A DNA stretch of 35,493 nt. Source: Candidatus Doudnabacteria bacterium RIFCSPHIGHO2_12_FULL_48_16 (GTDB taxonomy: Bacteria; Patescibacteriota; Doudnabacteria; UBA920; O2-02-FULL-48-8). The position numbers and the translations under genes are program-made. Below the pieces are notes generated by a model. It was not told the DNA's origin. It ran no database searches and worked only from the letters and a program-made list of their open reading frames with translations. The stretch covers positions 4,861 through 40,353 of the forward strand of contig MFEY01000005.1 in assembly GCA_001780035.1 (NCBI GenBank), in the 5' to 3' direction. Shown piece after piece: positions 15,518 to 22,863 of the stretch; positions within the stretch are counted from its first letter, which is position 1, and every line of letters begins with the position of its first letter.

Positions 15518-15600
15518 GTGTTTGACTTCCTTGGCGCGAAGGAATATCTTTCCGTTTGGCATAGCGGTAGACTGGTGTCGACTGGTCTCTCGTCAAACAC
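15518..15600 (+). ncRNA. Candidate small structured RNA with 9-bp closing stem
   Basis: GTGTTTGAC (15518-15526) pairs with GTCAAACAC (15592-15600); immediately inside is TTCCTT GGCGCG AAGGAA (15527-15544). TACTAT at 15505-15510 could be a -10 placing a start at about the stem. Inference only. Confidence 0.35.
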
Positions 15601-15652
15601 ATTAACTTAAAAATACCTATCTCATTGTTCCTGAAAAGGATCAATCGGCCGC

Positions 15653-15855
15653 AAGGTCGAGGATGCGACACAATGGGGTTCGACAGATTGCCGCATAAGA
15701 GCTAAAATTGCTCTGCATGTTCATGTGCCGGGGATACCCGGATAACACGCGATCATGCGCGCCTTGCAAGGCGCTTCGCGTCCCGATCGCTGACTTCGGT
15801 CTGCGGACGGAAACGGCACGAACCCACCACGAGTCGCATCCTGGTGGGTTTCGTG
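15653..15855 (+). ncRNA. Candidate structured leader / cis-regulatory RNA upstream of the integrase
   Basis: AGGATGCGAC (15660-15669) pairs with GTCGCATCCT (15833-15842); GGGTTCG (15676-15682) pairs with CGAACCC (15819-15825); competing 3' hairpin CACGAACCCACCA/TGGTGGGTTtCGTG (15817-15855) whose loop contains the P1 strand. Confidence 0.4.
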
Positions 15856-15858
15856 TAT

Positions 15859-16977
15859 ATGCTAACTAAAGACGCAATAAATCAATTCTCGAACTGGAGA
15901 CAGTTCAAGGTTAAAAAAACAACAGTACGCGGCTATGACCGCGAGCTAAGAAACTTCTGCCTGTTTCTCCGCAACCCTGACATCGAGCACATCACGTTGA
16001 GCAACGTGATGGAATACCTGAACGGCATGGCAGACCTCGGATGGGACAGAAACAGCTTCGTCGGCAAGTGCATGGCACTCCGAAAATTCTTCGAATTCTA
16101 CCGGCTACAAGGTTACAAAGTAATCGACGAAGAACTGATCCCAATACCAGACAAAGAACCAAAGCTGCCTCGCGTAGCAAGTGATGAGCAGTATAAGCAG
16201 CTTGTCTCGGCAATTCCGCAAGACACCAGCGACCCACGACATATAAGAAATCTAGCGATTCTCGGTCTCCTTTGGGACACGGGAGCACGAAACGGAGAAG
16301 TATGCTCCCTTAACGTAGACGATCTAGATCTGAACGAAAAGAGAGCAATAATCCGAACAGAGAAAGCAAAGTCCCGTCGACCATTCCGAGAGATCTTCTG
16401 GACGGATGACACCAATGATTATCTAGTGCGCTGGCTTAAGAAGCGAGATCACCTTACGAAAGTCATGAAGTTCGATGAACCGGGTGCACTCTTCGTATCA
16501 GTGACTAGCGTGAAGTGCGGCGACAGGTTCTCAATCAAGGGGGTGGGCGAAATGTTGCGACGGTACTGCAACAGGGCAAAAATGCCGTACATGAACGCTC
16601 ACAGCTTCCGGCACCACCGCGGACATCACATTATCAAGAGCGGGGGGTCGACTGCAGACGTCATGAATATCCTAGGCCACGCTTCAGTGCAAAGCACGAC
16701 CATCTACACGATGATGCACGGCAAAGAGCTTGAACAGCGGGCACGTCTCTTCCTCACAGACAGTAATAAAGACTTCGCAGGAGAAAGGGAACGCGACCCA
16801 GGATTCGATGACGCACTGCAGGGTCTGGTCACATTCCTCCGGAATGAAAACCAGGGCAAAGAAGCCATCACAGTCGATGAATTCCAGCGACAGGCCGAGC
16901 ACTTCTCAAAGCATGGATTATACATGCAACGAACCCGATCCAAGACTAAAGTACCTTATCCACAGTACATAACTTGA
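15859..16977 (+). CDS. Tyrosine recombinase / phage integrase
   Basis: ORF 15844-16977; ATG 15859 preferred over GTG 15844, which lies inside a hairpin. Catalytic signature: HSFRHHRGHHII...NILGHASVQSTTIYTM; upstream Arg region DTGARNGEV. Confidence 0.85.
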   Translation: MLTKDAINQFSNWRQFKVKKTTVRGYDRELRNFCLFLRNPDIEHITLSNVMEYLNGMADLGWDRNSFVGKCMALRKFFEFYRLQGYKVIDEELIPIPDKEPKLPRVASDEQYKQLVSAIPQDTSDPRHIRNLAILGLLWDTGARNGEVCSLNVDDLDLNEKRAIIRTEKAKSRRPFREIFWTDDTNDYLVRWLKKRDHLTKVMKFDEPGALFVSVTSVKCGDRFSIKGVGEMLRRYCNRAKMPYMNAHSFRHHRGHHIIKSGGSTADVMNILGHASVQSTTIYTMMHGKELEQRARLFLTDSNKDFAGERERDPGFDDALQGLVTFLRNENQGKEAITVDEFQRQAEHFSKHGLYMQRTRSKTKVPYPQYIT

Positions 16978-17242: not shown

Positions 17243-17412
17243 CCATAGGATCATTGAAAAGCGAATACGCCTACTCGTCTACGAGGGGGAAAGCACAACA
17301 GGCAACAGGGCCGGTTGCGACTCCTCGCAGACGAGCAGTCGAGAATCAAAGCACGGGTGGCTTCCCCAGCACCGAACCCCCTGTGGCATTTCTTACACTA
17401 GAAGAAATATAA
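17239..17412 (+). CDS. Unlisted 57-aa ORF overlapping the HTH stop by ATGA
   Basis: ATG 17239-17241 overlaps TGA 17240-17242; reads MTIGSLKSEYAYSSTRGKAQQATGPVATPRRRAVENQSTGGFPSTEPPVAFLTLEEI* ending at 17412. Confidence 0.4.
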   Translation: MTIGSLKSEYAYSSTRGKAQQATGPVATPRRRAVENQSTGGFPSTEPPVAFLTLEEI

Positions 17413-17478
17413 AAAGTGCGGATTGTTACAAACCGAAGAGCATAAAAAAAATCTTGCCAAGAAACAAGGATAAATTCC

Positions 17479-22719: not shown

Positions 22720-22733
22720 CAAGCCAATCAAAT

Positions 22734-22863
22734 ATATCAAGAGCGACAGCTAGGGATTTGGCCCGTTTGAACTGTCCAGCAACCCCGGAAACCGGAAGGT
22801 GCTAATTCCAACCTCGCAAGAGGAAAGATAAAGAAAAAACTTTCCTTTTTGGGAAAGTTTTTT
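22734..22863 (+). promoter_or_regulatory. SAM-I (S-box) riboswitch with intrinsic terminator expression platform
   Basis: ATCAAGAGCGACAGCTAGGGATTTGGCCCGTTTGAACTGTCCAGCAACCCCGGAAACCGGAAGGTGCTAATTCCAACCTCGCAAGAGGAAAGATA matches the S-box core (AUCAAGAG, GGCCC, GCAACC, AAGGUGCUAAUUCC, GAAAGAU); terminator AAAAAACTTTCC TTTTT(G) GGAAAGTTTTTT (22834-22863); antiterminator AGGAAAG (22821-22827)/CTTTCCT (22840-22846). Confidence 0.9.

Follow-up and report, generated by a model that had tools for sequence, protein, structure and literature searches.

A leader RNA family upstream of phage integrases in Patescibacteria that looks like an undescribed RNA switch

In phage lambda, int is subject to sib/tI control, with sib located 3' of int and acting through RNase III. 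The locus described here is similar in that integrase expression appears to be under an RNA hairpin, and differs in that the RNA lies 5' of the gene and is predicted to switch folds. Autogenous translational operators are employed by ribosomal proteins and by phage RNA-binding regulators; here, too, the start codon of a small protein lies in a structured domain, and the domain is found again ahead of another gene, but the nearest folds of this protein, none of them significant, are of the DNA-binding AbrB/MazE types, and binding to the RNA is hypothetical. Terminator/antiterminator attenuators and riboswitch platforms, for example, T-box leaders, share with our locus an exclusive upstream domain, a terminator-like hairpin beside the gene and dissolution of this hairpin by a long-range helix; unlike in these systems, the controlled gene is a phage integrase, there is no Rfam match, and the upstream domain is shared with a small AbrB-like gene. 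In the satellite phage P4, immunity involves the CI RNA with the seqA and seqC segments, and base pairing leads to premature termination (PMC4825925). The likeness consists in a lysogeny decision made by base pairing that results in premature termination and in complementary segments within one leader, whereas the sequence, gene order and host are all different, the integrase is the controlled gene, and an RNA acting in trans is merely suggested. Finally, the STAXI motif consists of short pseudoknots, two or three in tandem (PMC2864571). It is also a pseudoknot-type RNA candidate near integrase and DNA-handling genes, but our locus contains a single large domain with a 3' hairpin, without a tandem repeat in the region or a match in Rfam.

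Literature searches found no description of this leader RNA. Searching Rfam 15 yielded no match at the gathering score in the element or in 7 homologous loci, and at lax thresholds, only chance-level matches far under the gathering scores (for example, 14.1 bits vs 59). The first bases of the element are tmRNA-like, but no tmRNA model matches at the locus, and the tmRNA of this genome was found on another contig (C4) at 118 bits. Judging from sequence comparison, the element upstream of the integrase is a new leader RNA family, which is absent from Rfam.

The window, that is, the whole stretch of 35,493 nucleotides analyzed here, belongs to a 925-kb genome; its relatives and homologues are mostly from Patescibacteria. 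The first 17.4 kb of the window represent the right part of a prophage, with genes for SU10-type capsid and adaptor proteins and two amidases, followed by the leader and then the integrase. The genes located 3' of the integrase are of host type and include type I restriction, NUDIX and S-adenosylmethionine synthetase genes, the last one behind a SAM riboswitch (Rfam RF00162, E 1e-9; window 22731-22834). The features of the locus are as follows:

15522..15550, plus strand: candidate outer promoter, TTGACT-17-TATCTT (9/12 consensus matches; p 0.1 when taken alone; homologous leaders are similar at the same relative place).
15623..15675, plus strand: 5' domain, with P1 (CATTG, 15623-15627, paired with CAATG, 15671-15675) around P2 (15629-15640), P3 (15646-15659) and the free strand GATGCGAC (15662-15669); identified by covariation and a covariance-model match, and also found before a second gene family.
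15660..15682, plus strand: 5' strand of the long-range helix (AGGATGCGAC followed by GGGTTCG); exact complement, with covariation of the loop pairing and an extension that beats shuffles in most leaders.
15680..15708, plus strand: candidate interior promoter, TCGACA-17-TAAAAT, just 3' of the 5' strand of the long-range helix (10/12 matches; p 0.005 against dinucleotide shuffles).
15683..15816, plus strand: variable middle with local hairpins (for example, CCGGGGATACCCGG and GCGCCTTGCAAGGCGC), from predicted folds; helix-supported counterparts in Nomurabacteria-type leaders.
15817..15855, plus strand: 3' hairpin, with the partner of GATGCGAC in its loop CGAGTCGCATCC; present in nearly all leaders, with double changes in 6/6 inner pairs.
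15819..15842, plus strand: 3' strand of the long-range helix (CGAACCC followed by GTCGCATCCT), consisting of bases of the 5' arm and loop of the 3' hairpin; from complementarity, duplex energies and folds.
15859..16977, plus strand: integrase, a tyrosine recombinase of 372 aa and the controlled gene (Pfam PF00589 and PF02899; PHROG integrases).
17387..17419, plus strand: attR, with the shared AAAAAGTGC at 17411-17419; similarity among L051, L072 and the window ends here, and the secA 3' end is seen in L143 (585-610).

The initial annotation placed a large structure at 15653-15858, and all the pairings it named are present in the sequence: the long-range 10-bp AGGATGCGAC/GTCGCATCCT (15660-15669/15833-15842) and 7-bp GGGTTCG/CGAACCC (15676-15682/15819-15825) pairings, the 3' hairpin CACGAACCCACCA/TGGTGGGTTtCGTG (15817-15829/15842-15855) and both internal hairpins. 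The energy of this region is -99.4 kcal/mol, compared to -70.9 +/- 4.4 kcal/mol for 200 dinucleotide shuffles, none of which equals it (z -6.4). The structure is thus real, but its 5' start had been set ~30-35 nt too late: the true start is at P1, and the element spans about 15619-15860, the extent of the covariance-model match. Nor does the element begin with a recurring AAGGTCGA motif, as had been proposed. The AAGGTCGA at 15653 represents no more than the 3' half of hairpin P3 (CGGCC-GCAA-GGTCG), and because other leaders lack AAGGTCGA, the overlap of the motif with P3 is a coincidence. The motif itself is present in 7 copies on one strand of the window vs 1.24 expected, including those at window positions 229, 1163, 2477, 2975 and 8803; five copies are followed by a phage start codon at a distance of about 40-51 nt. 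It is sometimes found in the loop of a small hairpin, precedes genes in four other records as well (L123, L134, L156 and L159), and is possibly a phage promoter or leader signal.

Because a BLASTN search for the element in 98 relatives returned only short chance matches, homologues were sought through the relatives of the integrase in viral contigs and species genomes. The integrase homologues with a leader come mostly from Patescibacteria phages and MAGs. Despite very different sequences, these leaders share a common architecture: helix P1 enclosing P2, P3 and a free strand (GATGCNNN), then a variable middle and a 3' hairpin before the integrase ATG. In many leaders, P1 is CCATTG/CAATGG and encloses one or two hairpins, often CCC-GAAA-GGG. 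The free strand inside P1 varies among leaders (GATGCTAG, GATGCGAC, GAGGCAAA, GATGAGAG, GACGCTAA and others), and the loop of the 3' hairpin is its complement; in most leaders, 1-30 nt separate the hairpin from the ATG. An automatic, unsupervised search recovered a loop complement of at least 8 in 25/31 leaders, compared to 7% of shuffles. Among leaders that were held out and fetched later, L119, L120, L122 and L123 show the loop complement at p <= 0.005, and L124 and L125 have the same layout with a weaker complement.

The pairing strands covary in the homologues rather than diverge. In a core alignment of 18 leaders (P1, loop pairing and 3' hairpin), for which the segments were delimited manually, a procedure favouring pairing, standard pairs occupy 98.7% of the cells, and double changes occur in 13/19 core pairs vs 8.6 in shuffles; pairing drops below 45% once the partner is slid by one to three columns. 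The same covariation is seen in a full-length MAFFT alignment of eight leaders, for which RNAalifold proposed the long-range helix unprompted. A covariance model (R1) of these eight distant leaders, with both the window and the loop pairing left out, matches window 15619-15860 at E 6e-6, as well as 10 other leaders. The search with this model yielded new leaders, L097 and L123, and L097 contains a GATGCGAC/GTCGCATC pair that is absent from what the model encodes. In 380 genomes, there are only two strong full-length matches, one of them L097, each directly before an integrase. Weak matches in other genomes (L099-L103) do not precede integrases and look like plain terminators or chance. Taken together, the covariation and an energy far better than that of shuffles support the earlier riboregulator reading.

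Sequence conservation of the 5' domain is weak in the most distant leaders, so that one sensor common to all leaders is not certain. In G033, the integrase that follows this leader is quite different. Outside the genome of the window, the leader type is seen at L138:1500-1702 ahead of an integrase of only distant relationship (about 27% identity), and hence leader and integrase type are exchangeable. An integrase subgroup (L053:2830-2997, L061 and L075) has a different structured leader (GCGAGAGTTATTTTTCCATGCTTTCTGACTCTCG) together with an earlier in-frame ATG. We also considered a 5' coding extension of the integrase: in the window, the frame is open for 153 nt upstream, but it is open for at least 150 nt in only 6/33 leaders, and this candidate was rejected.

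The bases that follow the free strand can, in addition, pair with the 5' arm of the 3' hairpin. This extension of the duplex beyond the loop pairing has a mean energy of -11.1 kcal/mol vs -5.4 kcal/mol in shuffles, with p <= 0.03 in most of 25 leaders. In the window, the long helix between 15660-15682 and 15819-15842 excludes both P1 and the 3' hairpin. Of the two options in the initial annotation, in which the nested pairings either compete or form a pseudoknot with the 3' hairpin, the former holds, and only the loop pairing could coexist with the hairpin as a pseudoknot. The two states of the window have energies of -112.4 and -110.0 kcal/mol; in ten leaders compared, the gap between the states is within about 3 kcal/mol in 7/10 and 6-8 kcal/mol in three. 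The locus thus combines a hairpin that adjoins the controlled gene and is kept in the homologues, an upstream strand that is able to dissolve this hairpin and is kept by covariation, and competing states of similar energy. Exclusive states of close energy are the design of an attenuator, and we consider it probable that the leader acts in cis on the phage integrase mRNA as a bistable attenuator, with the 5' domain as the sensing part.

The architecture of this switch is well supported, whereas we infer the trigger and the ON/OFF logic. In the first state, P1 (15623-15627/15671-15675) forms together with the 3' hairpin (15817-15855), directly before the integrase start. This is the presumptive OFF state: the hairpin is thought to block or terminate ahead of the integrase start, terminating transcription in leaders with a T-run and masking the start region where the T-run is short, as in the window. 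In the second, presumptive ON state, the strand 15660-15682 pairs with the 5' arm and loop of the hairpin (15819-15842), breaking P1 and opening the hairpin before the integrase, which would then be made. The hairpin is followed by T4-T5 in many leaders and only by TTT in the window, where a terminator scan did not score it as a terminator; because of this difference in the T tail, control may involve termination, start masking or both. P1 would be the sensing helix, and the domain that it forms with P2, P3 and GATGCNNN the sensing part.

Most leaders contain a TTGACA-16/17-TANNNT promoter shortly upstream of P1. In eight of them (L079, L083, L085, L088-L090 and L093, as well as L123), the -10 box of the outer promoter, also shortly upstream of P1, lies inside a palindrome (CACTACAcTAGgATGTAGTG) that is likely a repressor operator. 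In the window, a perfect 9-bp inverted repeat (GTGTTTGAC/GTCAAACAC) around further hairpins at 15518-15600 overlaps the candidate outer promoter.

The 5' domain is not confined to integrase genes. The covariance model detected two further copies of this domain alone in one phage, each over the start of a gene encoding a protein of ~100 aa, with the ATG inside P1' (CAATG), and with a model of the 5' domain, it was found in the same place at 16/23 loci of this small gene. The gene is unrelated to the integrase and co-occurs with the leader in 10/30 records that carry the latter, including G417, to which the domain itself had led; 191 other genomes gave 1 weak match. Many leader-bearing phages lack the small gene, and many of these records are fragments. 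The genome of the window carries it on contig C8, near the left end of apparently the same prophage; in this phage and its near twin, the gene comes without the 5' domain. The protein family (L143:1489-1809, L145-L156 and L157-L168) is weakly AbrB/SymE-like and shares the motif RAVTYRRxGIPALILEGKWLTxKYRLxIGDxVDI, and the RNA domain usually covers the start codon at these loci. No family was found for the protein in Pfam, NCBIfam or PHROGs, no match among PDB sequences, and none in the annotated phage collection searched. Its structure was predicted with low confidence (pLDDT 65), and a Foldseek search with this model gave nothing significant, the top neighbours being AbrB/MazE folds. Because the domain recurs before the small gene, with the ATG inside P1', a stabilized P1 would silence both the integrase and the small AbrB-like gene, and both would be expressed once P1 is opened. 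As for the sensor, the most economical choice, which is a guess, would be the small protein or another phage product binding the 5' domain.

Control by RNA-RNA pairing in trans, similar to P4 immunity, is an unlikely reading of the same elements: a short RNA started at the interior promoter and ending in the 3' hairpin would pair through its loop with the GATGCNNN strand, both in the small-gene leader and in nascent integrase leaders, thus setting their fold. Indeed, a promoter-like site is present at the same interior place, at p < 0.05 against shuffles, in 14/30 leaders including the window, and RNA begun there would lack the 5' strand and be able to form the 3' hairpin only. Moreover, seven genomes have one small gene with the domain, and in 7/7 of them, the 8-nt strand of this gene is exactly complementary to the hairpin loop of the genome's own integrase leader (48 of 5040 permutations), including G410, in which the strand of the integrase leader itself is mismatched. 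Because the P3 hairpins differ between the integrase and small-gene leaders, simple recent copying does not explain the match, but common descent could. In addition, hardly any of the Nomurabacteria-type leaders, which are those with the 7/7 match, have the interior promoter, one of the two small-gene copies in G394 does not match the hairpin loop, and a role in cis alone explains the covariation of the leader.

We consider improbable a metabolite riboswitch, in which the 5' domain would bind a small molecule and the long-range helix would serve as the expression platform. The modular domain before two types of genes, the classical two-state platform and the GATC and GATGCTA conserved in the junction are all compatible with such a switch. 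However, these junction bases are kept in close leaders and lost in distant ones (L022, L065 and L084), that is, the aptamer core is not strictly conserved; no Rfam aptamer matches, and the controlled genes are of the phage lysogeny type rather than metabolic.

A free-standing small RNA with its own terminator, merely located before the integrase gene, would account for the outer promoter, the structured body and the T-rich hairpin end of many leaders, but is decidedly improbable given that both strong full-length matches directly precede an integrase and that the helix dissolving the 3' hairpin, which a plain terminator does not need, is conserved.

The initial annotation also allowed for a recombination-site structure, and inverted arms about a short centre beside the integrase gene do resemble a tyrosine-recombinase core. 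The ends of the prophage, however, map elsewhere. Three near-identical phages in different hosts (the window, L051 and L072) lose similarity at window 17412-17418, in a secA 3' remnant about 430 nt beyond the integrase stop, and attL is in the secA 3' end on another contig of the assembly. The flank of L051 continues with ...AAGAAATGGAAAAAGTGTCATGGAAAATAA, reading KKWKKCHGK-stop, like the SecA C-terminus, and on contig C8, the secA 3' end ...AAAAAATGGAAAAAGTGCCATGG precedes the left prophage end; from these observations, the phage integrates in the secA 3' end. With neither a prophage end nor a shared core at the hairpin, the leader intact in the integrated prophage, and GNRA-type loops and compensatory G-U pairs pointing to RNA, the chance that the leader is an attP core or a folded single-strand site for the integrase is negligible.

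A larger scheme, which we put forward tentatively and consider rather doubtful, is that one RNA module ties together two loci in Patescibacteria phages, with the integrase hairpin loop and the leader of the AbrB-like regulator sharing a partner that pairs with them or reads them, in an RNA-centred lysogeny switch unlike the known repressor circuits. To our knowledge, almost nothing is known about the choice between lysogeny and lysis in phages of Patescibacteria. A conserved RNA switch before the integrase, whose 5' domain also lies over the start codon of a co-occurring small phage gene, would provide a concrete, testable control circuit, and appears to be a so far undescribed RNA switch through which these phages settle in or leave the host.
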